Source: an uncultured Fretibacterium sp.
Lineage (GTDB): Bacteria > Synergistota > Synergistia > Synergistales > Aminobacteriaceae
Length of the DNA stretch: 64,000 nt
Assembly (NCBI GenBank): GCA_947168585.1
Contig: CAMVMK010000007.1
Span: forward strand, 1-64,000
Direction: 5' to 3'
Position numbers and translations under genes: made by a program. The notes below the pieces were generated by a model. It saw only the letters and a program-made list of their open reading frames with translations, was not told the DNA's origin and made no database searches. Shown here in pieces: positions 2,578 to 61,476 of the stretch (position 1 is the stretch's first letter; every line of letters starts with the position of its first letter).

Positions 2578-2759
2578 AAAATTCTCCCCTTTTGAAAAAT
2601 TTTTAATTTATTATTCGGTGATAAAATTCTATCAATGCTAATTTTAATTTGCAAGACTCTTAAAAATAAAATTTTGTTTCGTGAATTTTTGAAAAGTTCT
2701 CGAGAAAAAAATGATTTTGATTTTTAATTTTGACTGCCTCATAAAATTTTGCGGTTACG

Positions 2760-2807
2760 AATTAAAATTAAGATTTTTTGAGTGGAAAAATGAGTGGAAA
2801 AAATAAT
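2760..2807 (-). repeat. Twin 12-bp-period element upstream of gudD
   Basis: Minus strand reads TTTTTTCCACTCATTTTTCCACTCAAAAAATCTTAATTTTAATT; near-identical to 44344-44392. Confidence 0.7.
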
Positions 2808-2868
2808 TTTTTATTTCAGTCAGGGAAATTTTACTTTTGAAATTATATCATAAAAAATAAATTTTCGT

Positions 2869-6207: not shown

Positions 6208-9200
6208 ATGAATGAAAAAACAGCTGAAGAAAAATTAAGACAAACCCTTGAGGGCAATATGTCAGGAGACACCGCTAAAAGCACGCCTAAGCGTGTCGTT
6301 GTCCGTCGGATAAACAAGCCGGACTCCCCTGCAAAAGTTGCGGATTCTTTTATGGAAGACTTTGAAAAGAAACTCGAGCAAAGTCTTAACTTTGGTAGTG
6401 TTTCAAGCAAAAAAGGAACTGAAACTTCCGCACATAAAATAATAATAAAATCAGAACTGTCCGATGATACGCCCGTCAGATCCGGTAAAAACATAAAGCC
6501 CCGCGAGCTTAAAACGAAACCCGCAGCTTCTTTTATGGAAGACTTTGGAAAAAAACTTGAGCAAAGTCTTAATTTCGGTAGCTTTTCAAATAAAAAAGAT
6601 AAAAAAGAAACTGAAACTAAAATAATCATAAAAAGAAAATTAGACGTGTCGGATGATACGCCTGTCAAACCGAAACCAGTTGAAGCTCAAACTAAAATTT
6701 CAGAAATTCCGTCAGAGCCTATCGAAGTTGAGCCGGAAAAATCTACAGCACAGCCGCAGGAAGTTCAGCAGGAAATTAAAGTTGAAGAGCCGACTCAAAA
6801 AATTACTTCGGAAGCCGTCAGTGAACCTGACGAGACGCAAAATTTCGAGCCCGTTGAAGAAATTAAAGAAGAAGTTAAAGAGACGGAATTAGAGAAAGAA
6901 AAAGAAAATCTCGAAGAAAAATCTCAGCCGGAAAATATAGAAGCTATAACTGAAATCGAGCCGTCAGCTAATGAAATTGAAGAACCTGAAACGCAAATTT
7001 CAGAAATTCCGTCAGAGCCTATCGAAGTTGAGCCGGAAAAATCTACAGCACAGCCGCAGGAAGTTCAGCAGGAAATTAAAGTTGAAGAGCCGACTCAAAA
7101 AATTACTTCGGAAGCCGTCAGTGAACCTGACGAGACGCAAAATTTCGAGCCCGTTGAAGAAATTAAAGAAGAAGTTAAAGAGACGGAATTAGAGAAAGAA
7201 AAAGAAAATCTCGAAGAAAAATCTCAGCCGGAAAATATAGAAGCTATAACTGAAATCGAGCCGTCAGCTAATGAAATTGAAGAACCTGAAACGCAAATTT
7301 TAGAAACTTCGTCAGAGCCTATCGAGTCCGAGCCTGTGATTGATGCCGAAATTGAACAGAAACATGAAGAGCAAAAAGAGCCTGAAGCTGAAAATTCTGA
7401 ACTTCCTGACATTCCTTTAATCAGCGAAAATAGCGAAAATGAAACAGATGACGAAACTCAAAGCGGTCTGCCCGATATTCCTGTAGTCAATGCCGATTCT
7501 GAAAACGAATTTGAAAATGTCGATACATCTGGTTTAGAAAATGAAAATTTAGATGGCTTTGAATTTGAAGATGAAGATTTAGCTTTAGACTCCGGCGATG
7601 ATTCTGAAACTAAATCCGAAGAAGATTTTTCACCGTCCGCCGATGTCGTTGTCAATGTCGATGACGAAATCCCCGAGCAAACTCCCGAAGTTCAGCCCGA
7701 AGGCGGCCTTGCTCCTATCTCTGTCGAAATGCCGGAGAAAACCGAAACAGCCGAAGATAAATTAATGGCCGACATCGCCGAAGCCATGACCGGCACTCCT
7801 GTAACTCTCGAAACCCGCGAGCCTGTTGAGCCTTATAAACTTCCTGAGGATTTTCTTAACGAGGCCAATAAAGACCCGTCCCAGCAGACTGCTGAAAATA
7901 AATTAATCGCTAATATTGCTCAGGCTATGTCCGAGTCTACTCTTGACGCTGCCGCCGGTAACGCCGCTCAAAATTTTGAGGACGAATTAGATAATCTTAG
8001 TAATGAAGATTTAGCGTCAGTTTTTCCCGGCCGTGAAGAGCCATTGACCGAAGAAATAGATCTTTCAGCTTATGAAGCAGACGAGCCCGAAGTTCAAGAG
8101 CCAGCCCCTAAAGTTGAAGATGATGAGCCTGAAAAGCCCGAAACTGAAATTGAATCAACTTTCGATGAAAGCCCTTTGCCTGAGCCTGTCGATGAGCCGG
8201 AGCCTGAACCTGCAGAAGAACCGGATTTGACTCTCGCTCCTATTGAAGAGCCTGCAGACGAAGAAACAGAAGAAGCTCCGCAGGAAATTGAAATCGAGAG
8301 CGGGCCTGAAATTCAAGAAGAAAATCAAGAACAAGAAATTGAAGCAGAGCCGGAGCCGGATATTGAGCCTGAAAATCTTGAAGTTCCTGAAACTGAAAGC
8401 CTTTTATCTGAGCCGGAACCTGAACCTGAAATAGAAGAAGTAAGCGAACCTGAAATAGAAAACGAGCCTGAAGAATTACAGCCTGAAATAAATTTAGAGC
8501 CTGAAAATCAAGACGAAGACGATGATTCTGATTCGTCTTTCTTTGACGGACTTCCTGACGAACTTCTTGGGGCTATGTCAATGCCGGAAGAAAGTTCCGA
8601 AGACGAGAGTTTAATTTCCGAAAATTCAGAGCCTGATGTAAGTTCTTATTCTTTGAGAAAAAATAAGTCTGAACAGAGTTTAATATCAGAATCAGAAAAT
8701 GAAAATGACGAGAATTTTGAAGACGTTGAAGAATCTAATGATGATTTCGATATAAATTCTCTCGGCGAAGATTTTAACAGGGCTATTGCAGCACCTTCTA
8801 ATAAAGAGCCGGAATTTGAGCCTGAACCCGAAATTGAAGAAGAAAATGATTACGGTTTTGACGAAAATTCGCCCTCTCACGGAGGTTTTATGACTACTGA
8901 CCCGGGCGAAGAAGAAGAAAAAAATAAAGTAAAAGATTTACGCGGCAGATTAGCTGAACGGGGAAATTCTTCAATTGAAATAAACGATGATGATGAAGAC
9001 GAAAATGATAATGACAACGAAAATTCTAAATCATCGGGAAGAATTGTAACGCCGTTATTATTAACTGCTTTGCTCGGTCTCGGAGGCTTTATAGCGTGGC
9101 AGACTATGCAGTTCACTAATAATTTAGCGGGCGGCCTGCCTAATGTTTCTTCGAGTTCTGCGTCAATGCCGGGATCGCTTAATCCGTCATATGAATACGC

Positions 9201-9351
9201 TGTCGATTTTATTTTTGACTCGAATTTATCGGGACGAATGGCTCAGCGCGGCAAAGACGGCTGGAAAGTCGCAAGTTCAAGGCGTACTCAAGACAGCATA
9301 ACAGGCCAATTAGGTTATGAATTTATATTTTTGCGGGAAAATAAAAATTAA
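6208..9351 (+). CDS. Giant Glu/Pro-rich acidic membrane protein with internal repeats, one TM helix and C-terminal DUF4177-like domain
   Basis: About 930 aa of E/P/D-rich sequence, TM VTPLLLTALLGLGGFIAW, then YEYAVDFIFDSNLSGRMAQRGKDGWKVASSRRTQDSITGQLGYEFIFL. Confidence 0.75.
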   Translation: MNEKTAEEKLRQTLEGNMSGDTAKSTPKRVVVRRINKPDSPAKVADSFMEDFEKKLEQSLNFGSVSSKKGTETSAHKIIIKSELSDDTPVRSGKNIKPRELKTKPAASFMEDFGKKLEQSLNFGSFSNKKDKKETETKIIIKRKLDVSDDTPVKPKPVEAQTKISEIPSEPIEVEPEKSTAQPQEVQQEIKVEEPTQKITSEAVSEPDETQNFEPVEEIKEEVKETELEKEKENLEEKSQPENIEAITEIEPSANEIEEPETQISEIPSEPIEVEPEKSTAQPQEVQQEIKVEEPTQKITSEAVSEPDETQNFEPVEEIKEEVKETELEKEKENLEEKSQPENIEAITEIEPSANEIEEPETQILETSSEPIESEPVIDAEIEQKHEEQKEPEAENSELPDIPLISENSENETDDETQSGLPDIPVVNADSENEFENVDTSGLENENLDGFEFEDEDLALDSGDDSETKSEEDFSPSADVVVNVDDEIPEQTPEVQPEGGLAPISVEMPEKTETAEDKLMADIAEAMTGTPVTLETREPVEPYKLPEDFLNEANKDPSQQTAENKLIANIAQAMSESTLDAAAGNAAQNFEDELDNLSNEDLASVFPGREEPLTEEIDLSAYEADEPEVQEPAPKVEDDEPEKPETEIESTFDESPLPEPVDEPEPEPAEEPDLTLAPIEEPADEETEEAPQEIEIESGPEIQEENQEQEIEAEPEPDIEPENLEVPETESLLSEPEPEPEIEEVSEPEIENEPEELQPEINLEPENQDEDDDSDSSFFDGLPDELLGAMSMPEESSEDESLISENSEPDVSSYSLRKNKSEQSLISESENENDENFEDVEESNDDFDINSLGEDFNRAIAAPSNKEPEFEPEPEIEEENDYGFDENSPSHGGFMTTDPGEEEEKNKVKDLRGRLAERGNSSIEINDDDEDENDNDNENSKSSGRIVTPLLLTALLGLGGFIAWQTMQFTNNLAGGLPNVSSSSASMPGSLNPSYEYAVDFIFDSNLSGRMAQRGKDGWKVASSRRTQDSITGQLGYEFIFLRENKN
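6695..7300 (+). repeat. Exact 300-bp tandem duplication (100 codons, in frame)
   Basis: Lines 6721-6960 and 7021-7260 are identical; identity runs 6695-7000 vs 6995-7300. Confidence 0.97.
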
Positions 9352-12109: not shown

Positions 12110-14905
12110 ATGTCAATGGTAATTAATAACAACATACCGGCTTTACAGAGCTACAATATTGTTAATAACACAAGCAATGCTCTTCAGAAGTCGATAGCGA
12201 AACTTTCAAGCGGTCTCCGCATTAACTCAGCCGCAGACGACGCAGCAGGACTCGCAATCAGCGAAAAGATGCGCGCTCAGATCAGCGGACTTGATCAGGC
12301 AGTCAGCAACACTCAGGACGGTATCAGCCTCATTCAGACAGCTGAAGGCGCACTCAGTGAGACTCACTCAATTCTTCAGAGAATGCGCGAGCTTTCAGTT
12401 CAGGCAGCCAACGACACTTTGACACAGCAGGATAGAAGCTATATCCAGGAAGAAATCGGCCAGCTTAAGGAAGAAGTTACCCGTATCGGCAACACGACAC
12501 AGTTCAACAAAAAGAAACTTCTTAACGGTGATGCCGCAGTTCTTTGGAGCAGCAGCGACAGCGAAACAAAAGCTATCGTAAACGGCGGTCTCCGCGAGAT
12601 CGACCAGTTCGGCCAGAAAAAGTCAATCGAAGGCAACTATAAAATCCGCGTAAAAGCAGATCCCGGTCAGGGCGAAGTTCAGAAGTCGGACATCATGAAG
12701 ATTAAACATGAAAACGTCATCATGAACAAGTCCGTAAACTCTGACTACGGCGTTAAAGACCTCACAGTCAACGGCGTACCTGCAGGCAACTATACAGTTA
12801 CTTACGAGACTGAAGGCCCTGAAGGTGCTCAGCTTACCGGCTCTTACGGTATCGGCGGCGACTTGTACACTACAACAAGTGCTATTACGCTCAATGACAC
12901 GACATCACCGGTAACAAAAGTTTCAGTTGTTACTGACGACGGCGTAGAGATTTGGTCAACCACCGGTTCAGACATTTTCGGAACTGGCGGCGGAGCAACA
13001 GCGGATGAGCAGAGAGAGTTCTTTGTTGGAACTGACGAGAACCCCGGCGGTGTTTGGAATGAAATCATCGCAGCAGCAAGAAATAAAGGCGTAAATATTA
13101 CACCTCCTGATGCTGATTCAGTAGCAGATTTGAGCGAAATCACGACTACAAAAATCGGCGGTTCTGCAGCCGGCTTAAAGATCGTCTATGAAGGCGGCGG
13201 AAGCGGCACAGGCCCGACATCAGAAATTACGACAACCAGTGCAGAGGAAGCAGAAGCAATCGATGCAACATCTGTATTTGCTCTTGATGCTTCAAACGTT
13301 ACTGAAAACGCCAGCATTCTCTTTGAAGTTACAAATATTGACGCAGTCAGCCAGTCCGTTACTCTCAAAGCTACGGCCAACAAACTTTCAGAGACCGGCG
13401 TAACTTCAACAGCAGTTCAGGATAATATCGTCCTTTCGATCGGCGGCGATGAGCCCAGCACAGTCAAACTTGATAAACTTTTTGATGCAAAAGATGGTGC
13501 TTATGCAACGATCACATTCGGAGATAGCGAAAACGCTTTCAACGCCATTCAAGACGGTGCAAAGTTTGTCTACTCAGTTACGCCTTCAGAATTAACCGGC
13601 GGCGGAGAGAACACGCTTTATCTCGGACTTGATGCTTCAATGGACAGCGAATCGGATAACAAGTGGGACGGCGGTCCTTTCAACGGCCTTAATCCGACTT
13701 ATATCTTAGACGGCGACAAAGTAGCAGACACCGAAATCAACATGACAAACTTCTATCTTAACGAGAAGACCGGTGTTGCTACAGAAGGTACAGTAACGCT
13801 TGTAACCGACAGCAATTTCCAGATGACCAACGGAGCTATTTCCGGCGATCATGATCCTGCTATCACAGACGGCACAGTTCTTGCAAGCGGCACAGTTGCT
13901 TACATCGGCAAAGTTGCTACAGGCGACACGAAACTCCGCGACCTTGACAAGTTCTGGAACTCAGAGGGCGTATTTATGCTTGAAGATCCCAAGACGCTTA
14001 CCCTTAATCAGGGCGACGGCAAGACAGCAAGCGTAACTCTCTATGCTAACGACACTCTTGACGATGTAGCGAAGAAATTCAACGATGCAATCGCAAACGA
14101 TCTCGGCCAAAGCAAATATGTTGATGACTCATCGAAGTTCACTACATTTGTTGACGGCGGTACAAAGAATTCTGAATCAGTCGGCGGCACGTTCCTTATC
14201 CGTTCAGTTGTACCCGGCAAAGCCGGCGAAATCACTCTTTCAGGAGACGAGCAGTTAATCAACGCTTTCTCGCTCAACACGATTCAGGACTCGAAAGAGA
14301 CTACATACACCGTTGATGTCAGCGATGCTCACACCGGCGCATCAATAGCTCAGGGCGTAAAAGTAACAGGCAATGTTGCTCACGGCGTAATTTCACCGAA
14401 CGTTGACGTTGAGTTCAGTGCTCTCGGCGGTATCAACGCTGCCTGGAACGATGACCTCAAGAAATTCACATACACGTCATCGACAGAAGAGTCAATCCTT
14501 CACCTTTCAGACAACACGACCGTTCTTCAGATCGGTGCAAACGAAGGCGAAGACATGGGCTTGAACATCGGCGATATGCGCTCGCATGCACTCGGACTTG
14601 ACGGCGTCAACGTTATGAGCCAGGATAGAGCAGCACGCTCAATCACGATCATCGACAACGCTATCGATAAAGTTTCGACACAGCGCGCTAAATTAGGTGC
14701 GTACCAGAACAGACTCGAATACACAGCAAACAACCTGACGACGGCCAGCGAGAATTTGACCTCAGCAGAGAGCAGAATCCGCGATGCCGACATGGCAAAG
14801 GAAATGATGCAGTTCACAAAACTTAACATCATGCTTCAGGCTGGTAACTCAATGCTTGCACAGGCAAACCAGCAGCCTCAGAACGTCCTTAGCCTGATCC
14901 GTTAG
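12110..14905 (+). CDS. Flagellin 1 (931 aa, very large central domain)
   Basis: N-term MVINNNIPALQSYNIVNNTSNALQKSIAKLSSGLRINSAADDAAGLAISEKMRAQ and C-term LGAYQNRLEYTANNLTTASENLTSAESRIRDADMAKEMMQFTKLNIMLQAGNSMLAQANQQPQNVLSLIR. Confidence 0.97.
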   Translation: MSMVINNNIPALQSYNIVNNTSNALQKSIAKLSSGLRINSAADDAAGLAISEKMRAQISGLDQAVSNTQDGISLIQTAEGALSETHSILQRMRELSVQAANDTLTQQDRSYIQEEIGQLKEEVTRIGNTTQFNKKKLLNGDAAVLWSSSDSETKAIVNGGLREIDQFGQKKSIEGNYKIRVKADPGQGEVQKSDIMKIKHENVIMNKSVNSDYGVKDLTVNGVPAGNYTVTYETEGPEGAQLTGSYGIGGDLYTTTSAITLNDTTSPVTKVSVVTDDGVEIWSTTGSDIFGTGGGATADEQREFFVGTDENPGGVWNEIIAAARNKGVNITPPDADSVADLSEITTTKIGGSAAGLKIVYEGGGSGTGPTSEITTTSAEEAEAIDATSVFALDASNVTENASILFEVTNIDAVSQSVTLKATANKLSETGVTSTAVQDNIVLSIGGDEPSTVKLDKLFDAKDGAYATITFGDSENAFNAIQDGAKFVYSVTPSELTGGGENTLYLGLDASMDSESDNKWDGGPFNGLNPTYILDGDKVADTEINMTNFYLNEKTGVATEGTVTLVTDSNFQMTNGAISGDHDPAITDGTVLASGTVAYIGKVATGDTKLRDLDKFWNSEGVFMLEDPKTLTLNQGDGKTASVTLYANDTLDDVAKKFNDAIANDLGQSKYVDDSSKFTTFVDGGTKNSESVGGTFLIRSVVPGKAGEITLSGDEQLINAFSLNTIQDSKETTYTVDVSDAHTGASIAQGVKVTGNVAHGVISPNVDVEFSALGGINAAWNDDLKKFTYTSSTEESILHLSDNTTVLQIGANEGEDMGLNIGDMRSHALGLDGVNVMSQDRAARSITIIDNAIDKVSTQRAKLGAYQNRLEYTANNLTTASENLTSAESRIRDADMAKEMMQFTKLNIMLQAGNSMLAQANQQPQNVLSLIR

Positions 14906-15461: not shown

Positions 15462-15557
15462 TTAGTTAGGGGTTAGGAGTTAGCCTGCCAGCCTGACAGG
15501 CGGGGAGTGAGAAGTTTTTTCGTTCCTGCTTCCTGCTTCCTAACTCCTACTTGAAAA
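15462..15557. repeat. Heptad inverted-repeat element (copy B) with GC-rich hairpin insert
   Basis: AGTTAGGGGTTAGGAGTTAG-CCTGCCAGCCTGACAGGCGG-GGAGTGAGAAGTTTTTTCGTTCCTGCTTCCTGCTTCCTAACTCCTACTTG. Confidence 0.8.
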
Positions 15558-18737: not shown

Positions 18738-20396
18738 ATGGCATTTGGACCGGAATTTATATCAGGACTTTCAGGAGCTTTGAAAAAATTTCTGCCTCTG
18801 CGGGTTAACCGTATCGAGGGCGGCGACACTTGGGCGGCTCTAAAAAATTCAAATGAAAATTGGCTTTTAATTTCATGGACTTCGGGAGCGGCTGGAATTT
18901 GTCCGGCTTCTCAAAACGAAATTAACGCATTAAAAGAAATTTCTCCGGCTCGCGCGTCAATCTCTGAGGCATTAAAAAGCAGACTTATGCACGGCGGCGA
19001 AATTATTTCAGTACGTCAATTAAATCACGATAGAATTTTAGAATTTGAAGCACATCGGCGGATTTCTGCAGGGATAAGCGTGAATTATTTTTTAATTTTA
19101 GAAATCACTGAGCCTGTAGCAAATTTTTTATTGCTCGATGAAAATCATAAAATCGATGAGGCAGCAAGACATTCAACTCCCGATGTAAATTCTTTCAGAA
19201 CAATTCTGCCCGGACACGTTTATTCAGCTCCTCCGGCTTTTGAAGGCATTGAAATTAATAAATCAAGTTCATTAAATTTCGAGGACGTTCAAAATATTAA
19301 AGGTATCGGCAGACCTTTAGCGCGTTTAATTCAATCGCATTGGGAAGAACGCGAAAATATTTCGTGGCTGTCAGCGTTAAATGAAGTTAGGAGTGAGGGG
19401 TTAGGGTTTAGGGGTGAAAAAATTCCCTGCCGTCTCATTAAAAAAAATAATTATTTAACAAGATTTGATTTCGATTTTCCTGAAACAGTTTCGCTCGGCG
19501 ATGATGTTCTAAAGGCTTCACGGCATGGAGTTTTAATCCCGTTATTAAGACAAGGCCGCGAGAAAGTTTTACATTCAATCGATGCTAAATTAAAACGCGC
19601 CGTTAAATCAAAGCAGCGTCATCAGGACGGATTATTAAAACAGCTTAAAGAATGTCAAGAGGCTGAAATTTTCCGCAAAAAAGGCGAGGCAATTTTGACT
19701 CATATTTATGAAATTCCTAAACGCGCTGAAAAAATTAATCTTACTGACTGGGAGGGCAGCGAACTTGAAATAATTTTAGACCCGAATTTAACGCCGTCCC
19801 GAAATGCCGAAAAATATTTCAAACGTTACCGTAAAGCTAAAGGAAATCCGGACGAAATTCAAGCTAATTTAGAACAGATTAACGCTGCTATTAAAGAATT
19901 AAAAGAACAGTCGGCTCTGCTTGACGCTGTCGAAGACCCTGAAAATTTTAATCAAGCCGTAAAAGACTTAAATGAATGGATAGACCCGGGCGAAAAAAAA
20001 TCAAAATTAAAATCCCGTAAGAAAAAACAGCCGGATATTCCTCCGTTCTTGAATATTAATAGAGACGGCATAAATATTTTAGTCGGGCTTTCAGCACGCG
20101 GAAACAGGCACGTAACTTTCAAAATGGCTAATCAAAACGATATTTGGCTTCATGCTCACGAAATGCCCGGAGCTCACGTGATTATAAAAGGTGCGTCCCG
20201 TGAAGAGCTCGAAACTTCAAAGCGTGAAATTTTAGAGTATGCTGCAGGGTTAGCGGCTTCTCATTCATCAGGCAAAGAAGCTAATTCAGTGCCGGTTGAC
20301 TACACTGAAAGAAAATATATTAGAGCCGTGCCTGGAACTGTTGCGCTCGTTACTTATACTAATCCTGGAACTTTGAGAGTTTCGCCGGTGAACTAA
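18738..20396 (+). CDS. NFACT family protein (RqcH / fibronectin-binding A-like)
   Basis: NFACT-N-like N-terminus, HhH-like region, coiled coil, and NFACT-R motif ARGNRHVTFKMANQNDIWLHAHEMPGAHVIIKG. Confidence 0.87.
   Translation: MAFGPEFISGLSGALKKFLPLRVNRIEGGDTWAALKNSNENWLLISWTSGAAGICPASQNEINALKEISPARASISEALKSRLMHGGEIISVRQLNHDRILEFEAHRRISAGISVNYFLILEITEPVANFLLLDENHKIDEAARHSTPDVNSFRTILPGHVYSAPPAFEGIEINKSSSLNFEDVQNIKGIGRPLARLIQSHWEERENISWLSALNEVRSEGLGFRGEKIPCRLIKKNNYLTRFDFDFPETVSLGDDVLKASRHGVLIPLLRQGREKVLHSIDAKLKRAVKSKQRHQDGLLKQLKECQEAEIFRKKGEAILTHIYEIPKRAEKINLTDWEGSELEIILDPNLTPSRNAEKYFKRYRKAKGNPDEIQANLEQINAAIKELKEQSALLDAVEDPENFNQAVKDLNEWIDPGEKKSKLKSRKKKQPDIPPFLNINRDGINILVGLSARGNRHVTFKMANQNDIWLHAHEMPGAHVIIKGASREELETSKREILEYAAGLAASHSSGKEANSVPVDYTERKYIRAVPGTVALVTYTNPGTLRVSPVN
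19384..19421. repeat. Heptad repeat segment (copy D) inside the NFACT coding sequence
   Basis: GTTAGGAGTGAGGGGTTAGGGTTTAGGGGTGAAAAAATTCCC, translated within EVRSEGLGFRGEKIPC. Confidence 0.75.
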
Positions 20397-28699: not shown

Positions 28700-28725
28700 T
28701 TTTACTTCCTACTTCCTACTTGCTT
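28690..28725. repeat. Heptad repeat half-arm (copy I)
   Basis: TTTTTTTCATTTTTACTTCCTACTTCCTACTTGC. Confidence 0.5.
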
Positions 28726-29473
28726 TATTAATCATTCCGGCGAGATAGCCTGCTCCGAAACCGTTATCAATATTAACAACACTGACTCCGCTCGCGCATG
28801 AATTTAACATAGCAAGCAAAGCAGCAACTCCCCCGAATGAAGCTCCATAGCCGACGCTCGTAGGCACAGCGATAACAGGACAATCGGCCAAGCCTCCTAA
28901 AACGCTCGCCAATGCCCCCTCCATTCCTGCGACTGCAACTATAACACTCGCGCTCATAATTTCGTCAACGTGAGATAAAACTCTATGAAGTCCTGAAACT
29001 CCAACGTCATATAATCTTTTAACTTTATTCCCTAAAACTTCGGCAGTAAGGGCAGCTTCTTCAGCAACAGGAATATCACTCGTTCCGCCGGTAGCTACAA
29101 CTATAAAATTTTCTCCTTCGGGCTTGGGAATTTCACCGTAAATTCCTATGCGTGCTTCGGCATGATAATTTATTTCACAGCCTAAAGTTTTTAATTTGTC
29201 GGCAGATTCCTGCGATAGACGGGTGATTAAAACCGCGCCTTGATGATGTTCCTGCATTACATTAACAATCCCTGCGATCTGCTCGGGAGTTTTTCCTGCT
29301 CCGTATATAACTTCAGAAGCCCCCTGACGGATTTTTCTATGTAAATCAACTTTAGCGTAACCGATGTCTTCAAAGGGTTTTTCTTTTAATTTCAAGTAAG
29401 CTTCATCGACAGAAATTTTATTTTCTTGAAGTTCATGAAGAATTTTTTTTATATCGTTCAAAAAACTTTTCAC
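28709..29473 (-). CDS. larB: Nickel pincer cofactor biosynthesis protein LarB
   Basis: AKVDLHRKIRQGASEVIYGAGKTPEQI, VATGGTSDIPVAEEAALTAEVLG, AGMEGALASVLGGLADCPVIAVPTSVGYGASFGG. Confidence 0.93.
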   Translation of the reverse strand: MKSFLNDIKKILHELQENKISVDEAYLKLKEKPFEDIGYAKVDLHRKIRQGASEVIYGAGKTPEQIAGIVNVMQEHHQGAVLITRLSQESADKLKTLGCEINYHAEARIGIYGEIPKPEGENFIVVATGGTSDIPVAEEAALTAEVLGNKVKRLYDVGVSGLHRVLSHVDEIMSASVIVAVAGMEGALASVLGGLADCPVIAVPTSVGYGASFGGVAALLAMLNSCASGVSVVNIDNGFGAGYLAGMINKASRK

Positions 29474-29582
29474 CTCTCCATGAAAATAATATCACAAGAA
29501 AGGCAAATAGATATTATAATCGATAAAATATGATAAAATAATTTTTAAGAATTTTTCAAAGCTTTCAAAGTTGAGAAAAAAT

Positions 29583-29629
29583 ATTTTTTGCCACAACTTT
29601 TGCCACAACAAAAAAGTTCAAATTTTTTA
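29583..29629 (+). repeat. Twin 12-bp-period element upstream of dnaB
   Basis: ATTTTTTGCCACAACTTTTGCCACAACAAAAAAGTTCAAATTTTTT. Confidence 0.6.
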
Positions 29630-29750
29630 GTAATCATAATTTCTTTCAGATATAAATTTCAAAATAAAAATCACAGAAAAATAAAATTAAAAGTTAAGCA
29701 TTATAATATTCAAATTATAAATTAAAAAAGGAATCTAAAAATAATCTAAA

Positions 29751-31109
29751 ATGAACCCAATTTACACAAACCTTCCGAATAATACCGAAGCTGAACGCGC
29801 CGTTGTGGGTGCGGCTATGCTTTCTAAAGAGGCACTGGGAAGCGTCATTGAAATTCTCAAGCCCGAAGATTTTTTTGACATTAATAATAAAATCGCTTAC
29901 GAAATTTTAATTTCAATGTATATGGCCGACAAGCCTTTAGATTTCATTACGATTTCAAACGAATTTAAGGCTAAAGGAGTTTTTGACCGTTTAGGAGGAC
30001 AGCCTTTTATTGCCGAACTTATGGACGATATTTCAGTGCTTGCCAACGTAACTTATCACGCAGGAATAGTCCGGGAACATTCAATAAGAAGAAAGTTAAT
30101 TGAGGCCGGAAATAAAATCGTTGCTCTTGCTTATCAAAACGACAAAACTACTGCTGAAATTATAGCTGAAATTGAAAAATTAATTTTTGATGCCTCGCAA
30201 AATAAAAATTTCTCAGAGTTCCGGCATGTCCGCGATGTTATTACGCCGGTCTTCGTAAATGTTGAAGAAAGAGTTAAGAAAAACGGCGCTCATACAGCCG
30301 GATATCCGACAGGCTTTGTGGATTTAGACGGTTATACGGGAGGCTTTCAGCCTGGCAGTTTGAATATAATTGCGGCTCGTCCTTCTATGGGAAAGACGGC
30401 TTTTGCTATGAATATCGCTCAATTCGGAGGCACGGAGGCAAATATTCCCGTCTTAGTTTTCAGTCTCGAAATGCCCGCCGAGCAGTTAGTTTTAAGAATG
30501 TTAGCAGCTGAAGCAGAAGTAAATTTATCGGAACTCAGCACAGGAATTTTTACCACTGAAAATTTTAACTTAGTCCGCGAAGCCTGTGATGTTTTAGCAA
30601 AACGCGAAATTTATATCAGCGATGACTCAATGCTCACAGCTATAGATTTCAGAACACGATGCAGGAGATTTAAGACTAAACACCCGGAACTCGGTTTAAT
30701 AATTGTCGATTATCTTCAGTTAATGAGCTCCGGAGTTTCAAACATTAATAGCAGCCGTCAGCAGGAAGTTGCAGATATTTCGAGAATGTTAAAAGCCGTT
30801 GCCCGTGAATTAAACTGCCCTGTCGTAGCTTTGTCGCAGTTATCGAGAGCCGCCGAGCAAAGAGTAGAGAAAAAGCCTCAGCTTTCAGACCTTAGAGACT
30901 CCGGTGCTATTGAACAGGATGCTGACGTTGTAATTTTATTATTCCGAGAAGATTATTATTCAGACGATGAACAAAATGATGAGAAGAACAGTAAAGCCGA
31001 TATTAGAATTGCTAAGAACAGAAACGGAAGCACTGGGACTTTTCATATGACTTTCAGGCGCGAGATAACACGCTTCATGAATTACGGCGAAGATGATCCA
31101 GGCAATTAA
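29751..31109 (+). CDS. dnaB: Replicative DNA helicase DnaB
   Basis: [76 protein letters not shown]. Confidence 0.97.
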
Positions 31110-38862: not shown

Positions 38863-40002
38863 ATGAAAAAATTTTTAGGTCTTTTCATCGCGGTGAGTTT
38901 TATTTTAATTTTCCCGATGATTTCGTGCGCTTTTTTAGAGGACGTTCCAGAAGAAATTGAAAGAGAGCTGCAAGTTTTAATCGAACAGGCTAAGGACGGC
39001 GATACAGGCTCAAACAGAAAACTTCACCGCGAACTTAATCTTTATCAGAGCTTGGACTTATCGAGACATTCTAAAGACGAAATTTTAAGCCGCATAGAAA
39101 AACTTATAAGCTCCGGAAATTTTCCTGAATATGTTTTAGAGCGCGGCGAATATTCCTACACTCCTAACCAAAATTATTTATATCTCTCAGGAAGAAATGT
39201 AAATATGTATTCGCACCCCGTCTTAGATTCTTCGCTTTCAATCGCAAAATTTAATTCCGGCGGCGTTGACTACCTTATTAATTTAGGCGAATGGAAAACT
39301 CAAAGCGGACTTTTATGGGTCTTTGCACAGTCCCGCGAAACAGGTATAACCGGCTGGCTCGAACGCAGAAATGTTCATTTTGTCCCTAATTATAAATTTC
39401 AAGATTTTATTTCAGACATCACAAGCGGCCTGGCAGGCTACAACGTTACGACAATCCAAGAAACTCAAAAAGGCTCAGAAGCTATAAATTCGGCGGCTGT
39501 TAATTATAATAATTACACGAAAAATTTAGAGAGAAATATTTTAGCAGACATAAAATTATCTAAGAGCGGCAGCATCAACGCTAAGGCAAGTCTTAGAGAC
39601 AGGCTCGATTACTTCAACAGGATAGCAAAACGTCCGGCATTCGCTAAAAAATCATGGCACGAAAATGACGCTTACACTCAACAGTTAATAAAACAGAAAA
39701 AAATTTCCGGGCATTTATTCAGAGCAGGCTATAAATATGATGAGAGCGGAATCGTAATAATTACTCCTGACGCGGCGAATATCCGCCAAGAACCTGACGC
39801 GGATTCAAAAAGATTAGCCGGAACAAAACCGAACACTCCTTTAAGATATTTAGGAGAGAGGCTCAATAAGCAGGGCGAAAAATGGTATTTAGTTGACGAC
39901 AACAAAGGCAACATCGGCTGGGTTATTGAAAGAGTTATCGAGATTATTCCTATTGAAGCTGTAAAATTTTTTGCGGATCAAATTGAAAAAGCACTTCTTT
40001 AA
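38863..40002 (+). CDS. Secreted SH3-like domain protein
   Basis: Signal peptide; bacterial-SH3 patterns ANIRQEPDADSKRLAGTKPNTPLRYLGE...GEKWYLVDDNKGNIGWVIERVI. Confidence 0.7.
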   Translation: MKKFLGLFIAVSFILIFPMISCAFLEDVPEEIERELQVLIEQAKDGDTGSNRKLHRELNLYQSLDLSRHSKDEILSRIEKLISSGNFPEYVLERGEYSYTPNQNYLYLSGRNVNMYSHPVLDSSLSIAKFNSGGVDYLINLGEWKTQSGLLWVFAQSRETGITGWLERRNVHFVPNYKFQDFISDITSGLAGYNVTTIQETQKGSEAINSAAVNYNNYTKNLERNILADIKLSKSGSINAKASLRDRLDYFNRIAKRPAFAKKSWHENDAYTQQLIKQKKISGHLFRAGYKYDESGIVIITPDAANIRQEPDADSKRLAGTKPNTPLRYLGERLNKQGEKWYLVDDNKGNIGWVIERVIEIIPIEAVKFFADQIEKALL

Positions 40003-40072
40003 GTTAGGAGTTAGGAGTGAGGAATTAGGAGTTTTTTCGTTCCTAAATTTTCTAATTTATGCTTGCTTTTAG
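39999..40072. repeat. Heptad repeat element (copy J)
   Basis: GTTAGGA GTTAGGA GTGAGGA ATTAGGA GTTTTTT CGTTCCT AAATTTTC. Confidence 0.8.
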
Positions 40073-41625: not shown

Positions 41626-41692
41626 TCAGTTAGGAGTGAGGAGTTAGGAGTGAGGAGTTTTTTTAATTTCCCGCTTCTAATTCCTTAAATTT
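41626..41692. repeat. Heptad repeat element (copy K)
   Basis: GTTAGGA GTGAGGA GTTAGGA GTGAGGA GTTTTTT TAATTTC CCGCTTC TAATTCC. Confidence 0.8.
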
Positions 41693-44292: not shown

Positions 44293-44317
44293 TTTATGTT
44301 ATAATAAGCTAAATTAA

Positions 44318-44350
44318 AAATTCCCGGCATGAGTCGGGAATTTATTTTTT
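44318..44350 (+). terminator. Terminator after cstA
   Basis: AAATTCCCG-gcatgagt-CGGGAATTT then ATTTTTTT. Confidence 0.8.
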
Positions 44351-44392
44351 TCCACTCATATTTCCACTCAAAAAATTTTAATTTTAATTAGT
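44344..44392 (+). repeat. Twin 12-bp-period element upstream of the AIM24-like gene
   Basis: ATTTTTTTCCACTCATATTTCCACTCAAAAAATTTTAATTTTAATTAG. Confidence 0.7.
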
Positions 44393-44428
44393 GATTGTAA
44401 AGTTTTACGAGAAAGGGGAAATAAAAAA

Positions 44429-45106
44429 ATGAAATACGAAATTAAAGGCGAACCTATGCCGGTAGTTATTTGCAATTTAGAACCTAACGAGACTGTAACC
44501 TGCGAGGCTGGTGCTATGTGCTGGATGAGCCCTAACATGGAAATGAAAACGGCAGGCGGCGGCTTAGGCAAAATGCTCGGCCGAATGATGTCGGGCGAGA
44601 GTCTTTTTCAAAATCATTACACAGCTAAAAACGGCGCGGGAATGATAGCCTTTGCTTCGAGTCTTCCGGGTTCTATACGGGCTTTTGAAGTTACTCCGGC
44701 GGCTTCCATAATTTGTCAGAAAAAAGCATTTTTAGCGTGCTCTGAAGGTGTCGAATTATCCGTGCATTTTCAGAAAAAACTCGGCGTTGGATTTTTCGGC
44801 GGCGAGGGTTTTGTAATGCAAAAAATTTCAGGCAGCGGCATTGTCTTTTTAGAAATCGACGGCTCTACAGTCGAATATAATTTGAGCGCAGGACAACAAC
44901 TAATTGTCGATACGGGCTATCTTGCAATGATGGATGAGACTGTAAAAATGGAAATTCAAAGCGTCAAGGGCGTAAAAAATGCTTTATTCGGCGGCGAAGG
45001 AGTTTTTAACACAGTCGTAACAGGACCGGGACGTGTTCTGCTTCAAACTATGCCGATAACGGGTTTTGCTGCGTTAATTGCTAAACTGCTTCCGTCAAAA
45101 AGTTAA
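44429..45106 (+). CDS. TIGR00266/AIM24 family protein
   Basis: MPVVICNLEPNETVTCEAGAMCWMSPNMEMKTAGGG...GEGFVMQKISGSGIVFLEIDG...GLGVE-type beta-rich pattern. Confidence 0.85.
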   Translation: MKYEIKGEPMPVVICNLEPNETVTCEAGAMCWMSPNMEMKTAGGGLGKMLGRMMSGESLFQNHYTAKNGAGMIAFASSLPGSIRAFEVTPAASIICQKKAFLACSEGVELSVHFQKKLGVGFFGGEGFVMQKISGSGIVFLEIDGSTVEYNLSAGQQLIVDTGYLAMMDETVKMEIQSVKGVKNALFGGEGVFNTVVTGPGRVLLQTMPITGFAALIAKLLPSKS

Positions 45107-61260: not shown

Positions 61261-61367
61261 TTTTATGTTCCTGAATTAAATTTTGTTTCATTATAAACGA
61301 GAAATTGAGAATCTGAAAGTAAAAAATTAAAATTCTAATTCTAAAATTAAAGCTGTGAGTTTTGATG

Positions 61368-61418
61368 AGCGCGAAAAAATTTTGAGATTTTTGTAGTTGA
61401 AAAAGTAGTTGAAAAATA
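61368..61418 (-). repeat. Twin 12-bp-period element upstream of mtnA
   Basis: Minus strand: TTATTTTTCAACTACTTTTTCAACTACAAAAATCTCAAAATTTTTTCGCG. Confidence 0.6.
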
Positions 61419-61448
61419 AAAGTCCCCGAAAAATTTTTCGAGGACTTA
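61419..61448 (-). terminator. Terminator after the 61477-62340 gene
   Basis: AAGTCCTCGAAAAATTTTTCGGGGACTTTTATTTTT on the minus strand. Confidence 0.75.
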
Positions 61449-61476
61449 ATTTACAAAATTATTTTATCATAAAAAA

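Follow-up and report, generated by a model that had tools for sequence, protein, structure and literature searches.

Intergenic DNA of rumen Synergistaceae carries a dispersed family of short elements, about 100 copies per genome, in which a predicted promoter precedes a tandem pair of 12-bp units. The copies are evenly spaced along the chromosome and indifferent to the genes beside them. We tentatively read them as dedicated chromosome-organising (domain-boundary) elements, with a confidence somewhat short of even; the spacing was measured, and the binding protein and mechanism are what we infer. The novelty rests on the measured spacing and on the exchange of the repeated motif, X, between copies. 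No account of repeat elements in Synergistetes was found in a literature search.

Twin sites in the window

The window, the whole 64,000-nucleotide stretch analysed here, is contig C7 of G000, a genome of 2.35 Mb in 110 contigs that its DnaB relatives place among rumen Synergistaceae/Synergistales. All genomes compared are MAG-like assemblies, with genes called by simple ORF rules. Four sites of the window had been described as a T-run, X, a second T-run, X again and an A-run, with an exact period of 12 bp, and we confirmed this layout at all four. For three of them TRF reports a 12-mer present in exactly 2.0 copies. The elements comprise the following features.

2842..2852, minus strand: extended -10 box TATGATATAAT, gudD-side element (sequence and copy alignment)
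2774..2803, minus strand: twin core T6-CCACTC-ATTTTT-CCACTC-A6, subfamily A, gudD-side (sequence and pattern matches)
2711..2773, minus strand: tail, gudD-side element (R1 match 2711-2810, 52.4 bits)
29529..29539, plus strand: extended -10 box TATGATAAAAT, dnaB-side element (sequence and copy alignment)
29584..29615, plus strand: twin core T6-GCCACAAC-TTTT-GCCACAAC-A6, subfamily C, upstream of dnaB (sequence and pattern matches)
29616..29678, plus strand: tail, dnaB-side element (R1 match 29578-29678, 58.9 bits; column information)
44295..44305, plus strand: extended -10 promoter box TATGtTATAAT, AIM24-side element (sequence; box enriched at such a distance in all copies)
44318..44343, plus strand: terminator-like hairpin AAATTCCCGGC-ATGA-GTCGGGAATTT, then T7, AIM24-side (fold of -15.6 kcal/mol)
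44345..44375, plus strand: twin core T7-CCACTC-ATATTT-CCACTC-A6, subfamily A, AIM24-side (sequence and pattern matches)
44376..44434, plus strand: AT-rich tail, AIM24-side element (R1 profile match 44339-44434, 50.9 bits)
61461..61471, minus strand: extended -10 box TATGATAAAAT, mtnA-side element (sequence and copy alignment)
61420..61447, minus strand: terminator-like hairpin AAGTCCTCG...CGGGGACTT, mtnA-side (fold of -16.0 kcal/mol)
61388..61416, minus strand: twin core T5-CAACTAC-T5-CAACTAC-A5, subfamily B, mtnA-side (sequence and pattern matches)
61320..61387, minus strand: tail ending in TTTAATTTTAGAATTAGAATTTT, mtnA-side element (R1 match 61320-61423, 65.4 bits)

On the AIM24 side, the two copies of CCACTC start at 44352 and 44364 of the plus strand, exactly 12 bp apart. 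The -10 box of this element begins 3 bp past the stop of the upstream ORF, and its tail overlaps the ribosome-binding site of the AIM24 gene at 44429. The dnaB-side element has no strong hairpin; its tail is well conserved within subfamily C, as judged by column information. The gene downstream of the 61388..61416 twin, mtnA-like, matches PF01008 (IF-2B).

The frequency of the pattern was compared with that in random sequence, the comparison on which the original prediction had staked itself. A back-reference scan for period 12 gave 25 strand matches in 461 kb of G000, against 0-1 per first-order Markov simulation, which excludes a chance origin of the twin sites. Over the whole genome, two degenerate patterns gave 66-77 matches, against 0-1 for the reversed control. 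The pattern is far above random expectation in both searches, and the prediction stood.

Three types of X account for nearly all copies in G000: A (CCACTC), B (CAACTAC) and C (GCCACAAC), with the rare forms ATTATTAC, GCTAACAC, GCTAATAC and ACAACTAC. X had been thought private to each site, which does not hold. G016 has two sets on the one scaffold, GCAACTAC/ACACCTAC-type twins and TTGGGGACTACAATGGGGACTACA; other species carry GCCACTAC, CAGCTAC, GGTCACTAC or CAGCTGC. The 12-bp period is constant in every copy examined, and X changes between species while the scaffold is kept. In G016 and G064 the two units of one site differ systematically, GCAACTAC being followed by ACACCTAC, and such a fixed difference is not explained by simple local duplication. 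The duplication of local sequence, one of the two origins first suggested, is therefore rejected: a given X turns up at dozens of loci unrelated to one another, and the units of a single site can be unequal. Because X can be swapped while the scaffold stays fixed, the family lends itself to work on the evolution of binding specificity.

Even spacing along the chromosome

Within the window, successive sites lie 26.8, 14.8 and 17.0 kb apart. The spacing test was conceived after site positions had been seen; further contigs were then added to it, and other species were tested in turn. In G016, 58 sites in 1.04 Mb (contigs C1, C2, C4 and C5) leave 54 gaps with a mean of 17.7 kb and a coefficient of variation (CV) of 0.46. 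The null CV is 0.94 for uniform placement (minimum of 5000 simulations, 0.60) and 0.91 for a random draw from the intergenic gaps of the same contigs (minimum 0.58). None of the distances between sites falls below 5.5 kb, with 13.4 expected, and the distances have a gamma shape of 5.1. Spacing is also regular in G000 (CV 0.34 against 0.84 for random placement, p=1e-4) and, with estimated lengths of contigs, in G080 (0.50 against 0.86, p<1e-3) and G063 (0.58 against 0.84, p=0.03). G058 and G072, which are fragmented and have too few gaps, were left out of these statistics.

Neither X type of G016 is significantly regular by itself: type-1 sites are randomly spaced (CV 1.02), and type-2 sites have a CV of 0.71 (p=0.07). 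Taken together the two types are regularly spaced, and the regularity is lost when one is shifted against the other (p<2e-4). Copies that differ in X stand as far apart as copies that share it. Sites with different X are thus equivalent for whatever sets the spacing; since the subfamilies exclude each other in position, they form one system. Rare close doublets break the even pattern, at G063:C101:19630-19912 (184 bp), G072:C122:6124-6698 (470 bp) and G080:C1:73585-74886 (1.2 kb). Both strands are mixed along contigs of 335 kb and 328 kb, so that the elements show no polarity along the chromosome.

Independence from neighbouring genes

All four window sites are oriented with the downstream gene, as the original prediction stated, but this does not extend to the genome: in G000, 21 elements have the same orientation as the downstream gene and 22 the opposite one. 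With orientation random, a role as leader or attenuator of the downstream gene is rejected. Divergent, convergent and co-directional settings in G016 (19/11/26) equal the intergenic background (66/33/110). The neighbouring genes belong to 119 different Pfam families, none of them enriched. We found no conserved adjacency to the same genes between G000 and G016: genes that flank sites in the first rarely flank sites in the second (3/38, against 10/64 for non-site gaps). Copy number is nonetheless alike in the two genomes (~100), without site-by-site conservation. The distribution is even and gene-independent, as expected of a chromosomal domain boundary.

We also considered recombination at the elements as a cause of synteny breaks. 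Adjacency was kept at 2/10 site gaps and 10/17 siteless ones, a difference that is not significant (p=0.11). An empty-site comparison of G016 L102 with G000 L070 met regions both too diverged for alignment.

Architecture of the element

Aligned copies share one scaffold of ~155 bp, made of an extended -10 promoter, a short leader, the twin and an AT-rich tail. Conservation drops abruptly at both ends. The -10 box, TATGnTATAAT, ends 45±6 bp before the core in the copy alignment. In G000, 39/63 copies reach an extended -10 score of at least 9/10, against 0/189 controls, and 52/63 reach at least 8, against 7/189; in G016, 57/58 copies score at least 8/10, against 2/174 upstream controls. These matches place a predicted sigma70-type promoter, TGnTATAAT, at a fixed position in the element.

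About half of the leaders fold into a terminator-like hairpin followed by a T-run. The hairpin sequence is variable; its mean z is -2.65 in subfamily A and -2.0 in B, and subfamily C has none. A putative intrinsic terminator, with a stable GC-bearing hairpin and then a T-run, is therefore recognised only in about half of the copies. Presence of the hairpin goes with a co-directional upstream gene (19/25 against 9/33 in G016, p=4e-4), and most hairpin-bearing copies have one. The stop codon of such a gene is typically found 40-90 bp ahead of the core.

The twin core measures 27 bp, comprising two 12-bp units and the A-run. The AT-rich tail is ~70 bp long and extends to about +97, with a consensus common to subfamilies and species. 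A search for a conserved RNA fold in core and tail returned 0 consensus pairs. Rfam gave no gathering-level match in the window; at E<=0.5 it returned two tRNAs only, both outside the element. On these grounds, no consensus fold and no Rfam match at the elements, a structured RNA is rejected.

A direct repeat, GAAACAAAATTTTATTTTT, flanks some subfamily-A elements at about -70 and +121, for example at the L032 site 13775-13877 and at 2620-2660 of the window (minus strand). It is sometimes followed by a second TATAAT, and within 461 kb it occurs only beside twin elements.

Selection on the core

Copies of the same subfamily in G000 are 98% identical in the core, 59% in the leader and 61% in the tail, where random AT-rich sequence gives ~54%. 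The best whole-element identity between G000 copies is 0.85, so that our search for near-identical recent copies in this genome found none (tails of one subfamily are on average 0.61 identical, random sequence 0.54). G016 and G064, 94% identical, have 10/10 mappable sites in common. Across the 9-10 sites of this orthologue comparison, substitutions amount to 2.5% in the core (6/243) and 10% in the leader (55/549), with 5.2% in the tail and 6.1% in the -10 box. The flanks of these alignments, partly coding, differ by ~4.5%, a value from which the lower one of the core does not depart significantly (p=0.17); the contrast in constraint thus rests on the adjacent non-coding leader. A core that stays 98% identical where the rest falls to ~60%, and that changes fourfold more slowly than the leader between sister species, is under purifying selection. 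The sequences argue for constraint on the core at resident sites and against any recent burst of copies.

The other origin first suggested, a family of related regulator sites, survives in part. The sites do form a single family, whose scaffold is fixed and whose X can be swapped, under strong site-by-site constraint. Regulation of the downstream gene does not survive, given random orientation, unrelated neighbours and positions that are not conserved.

Distribution among relatives

The family reaches high copy number in 16-18/43 congeners. R1 profile matches occur in 25/43; 18 congeners have at least 7-88 scored copies, the rest of the 43 none or few, counts that are lower bounds with 90-150 candidates scored per genome. 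In about 18 congeners no copy or just one was detectable, so that the genus as a whole does not share the function. On a dnaB tree, G000 falls within a clade of seven species, every one of them high-copy, and presence is patchy elsewhere; about 8 changes are needed, a value that 2/500 shuffles equal or undercut. A pattern search of 40 genomes from other genera of the family gave no convincing match and a few single weak ones.

Single copies stand beside unrelated genes in the otherwise element-free G037 (L136), G046 (L137), G067 (L138) and G070 (L139), with X mostly CAGCTAC. They look like relics or horizontal strays.

Comparison with known repeats and sites

REP/BIME sequences of Enterobacteria are likewise intergenic, gene-independent and present in 100+ copies per genome, and the idea that BIMEs are barriers to supercoil diffusion has been put forward and tested (PMC6907758). 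Unlike the twin element, a direct repeat with promoter and tail, REPs are palindromic and tied to a Y1 transposase (RAYT). We found no palindromic unit: core and tail give 0 consensus pairs, and the leader hairpins are variable and absent from about half of the copies. PF01797 (Y1/RAYT transposase) is absent from G016, G058, G054, G063, G064, G078, G056 and G065; as most high-copy species lack it, REP/RAYT identity is rejected. To our knowledge, genome-scale even spacing across types with different X is not a described property of REPs. The nucleoid RNA naRNA4/REP325, which acts with HU, also ties repeat-derived transcription to nucleoid architecture (PMC6907758); twin elements differ in having no palindrome or cruciform and no conserved RNA fold.

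Correia, ERIC, BOX and MITE-like repeats are short, dispersed and non-coding too. Some of them carry promoters or protein sites. Twin elements differ in their even spacing, their constrained core and the lack of recent copies; terminal inverted repeats or target duplications were not seen by eye.

Noc sites, matS/MatP and parS comprise tens to ~100 sequence-specific sites whose distribution matters and whose neighbours do not; twin elements resemble them in number and in gene-independent distribution. Such sites are single, mostly palindromic and stable in sequence, with no promoter or tail, whereas twin elements are tandem and come in several X types per genome. Tyrosine integrase arm-type sites are paired direct repeats with a period of ~10-12 bp in AT-rich DNA. 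G016 has about 100 twin elements and no match to PF00589 (tyrosine recombinase: 0 in this 100% complete genome), and integrase arm sites are rejected accordingly. G016, which has neither PF00589 nor PF01797, shows that the elements need no tyrosine recombinase or Y1 transposase as a partner.

A possible boundary element and its alternatives

The inference of bacterial topological domains goes back decades. In E. coli they range from 10 to 400 kb, bounded by barriers to supercoil diffusion that have yet to be identified; barrier placement appears random, and a transcribing RNA polymerase can act as a barrier, as can BIMEs (PMC6907758). Diffusible supercoils move within ~10 kb domains (PMC3420936). 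Local domains are also imposed by transcription units (PMC10948358).

A chromosome-organising role accounts best for a promoter-linked twin site that is laid out as if for cooperative binding, is kept by selection where it stands, disregards neighbouring genes and recurs at even distances. In this reading both units would be occupied cooperatively by a DNA-binding protein with sequence specificity, or by a few paralogues that differ in the X they recognise. RNA polymerase from the element's own promoter would run 35-65 bp into this protein complex or into the terminator, and the assembly of polymerase, protein and DNA may form a fixed barrier or anchor, either a boundary to supercoil diffusion or the foot of a loop. 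Such anchors would divide the chromosome into units of ~15-20 kb. The hairpin possibly shields the twin from read-through of a co-directional neighbour. Selection would act on the distance between elements, making one dispensable once another arises nearby. In its full form the proposal is of a chromosome subdivided by a dedicated boundary element evenly spaced at ~18 kb, where transcription from a promoter runs into a twin bound cooperatively and each genome has several interchangeable X codes, which change from species to species although spacing and copy number persist; we think it less likely than not and put it forward as a possibility. If it is true, the family would supply candidates for dedicated domain boundaries that can be tested directly, their ~18 kb spacing kept through complete positional turnover and change of X; related species with ~100 copies or none would provide a natural experiment. 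Several points weigh against a boundary: about 18 congeners have the element singly or not at all, a few close doublets occur, a plain protein barrier would need no promoter, and insertion immunity of a mobile element could yield even spacing without selection.

This last, a mobile element, is the main rival, though in our view unlikely. A non-autonomous, MITE-like element with target immunity would insert away from existing copies, its twin being the transposase-binding site and X tracking different or diverging transposases. High copy number and dispersal, positions that have all changed between G000 and G016, the patchy dnaB tree (about 8 changes), relic-like single copies in low-copy species, X subfamilies common to many loci and the lack of any gap below 5.5 kb all agree with it. 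Inert insertions should decay evenly, but the core is kept, fourfold slower than the leader, while the rest decays. No recent near-identical copies exist (best 0.85), G064 has 10/10 mappable sites in common with G016, aligned copies show by eye neither terminal inverted repeats nor target duplications, and the high-copy G016 matches neither PF00589 nor PF01797. Immunity would furthermore need to work across subfamilies with different X. PF09299 (Mu/TnsB-type transposase) was found in 0/43 congeners, with the control genomes silent as well. If insertion immunity does set the spacing, it belongs to an unusual mobile element with copies under purifying selection, which would be likewise unexpected.

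A multicopy family of small-RNA genes, whose AU-rich RNA of ~40-140 nt would expose unpaired twin X motifs to an RNA-binding protein or to RNA targets, as a sponge or nucleoid RNA, would explain the promoter at a fixed distance in nearly every copy, conservation that begins at the -10 box and ends near a T-run ~135 nt past the predicted start, and an unstructured core, as expected of a single-stranded RNA motif. We nevertheless think it improbable: a trans-acting RNA leaves the even spacing of its genes unexplained, compensatory pairs and Rfam matches at the elements are lacking, and in about half of the copies a strong terminator hairpin precedes the twin, which there would escape transcription. 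Sites for DNA replication, repair or segregation (fork pausing, restart, recombination or nucleoid occlusion), with a spacing important for the cell cycle, fit the regularity and gene indifference just as well, and the units faintly resemble DnaA boxes (TTTGCCACA against TTATCCACA). Mixed strands on the 335 kb and 328 kb contigs give no polarity, however, promoter and leader are unexplained, and several mutually different X per genome misfit one conserved initiator, so that this reading appears slightly more improbable still. An ordinary transcription-factor regulon, with promoter and tandem operator upstream of targets and three paralogous regulators, is already largely refuted and hardly to be expected. 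In its favour, the core is selected, and an operator of tandem direct repeats placed about +40 from a sigma70-type promoter is familiar from roadblock repressors; against it stand random orientation to the downstream gene, with 13 convergent sites included, neighbours without common function, the lack of any target conserved between species, and the even spacing.

Other features of the window

At 28709-29751, dnaB is preceded by a divergent gene and a twin element. In four related Synergistaceae it directly follows another ORF (rplI-like by eye) with no gap, a difference in context that indicates a rearrangement here.

Another intergenic repeat of the window consists of short arrays of G-rich 7-mers, (AGTTAGG/AGTGAGG)n, at 1176-1207, 15464-15483, 19386-19415, 40002-40033 and 41628-41659, with TACTTCC arrays at 1212-1244 and 28703-28721. 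AGTTAGG/AGTGAGG arrays occur at further loci of G000 too, sometimes adjoining twin elements (L002, L046). Lastly, a 1047-aa ORF at 6208-9351 contains an in-frame tandem duplication of 300 bp, 99% identical (repeat 6695-7325), followed by acidic, low-complexity repeats.
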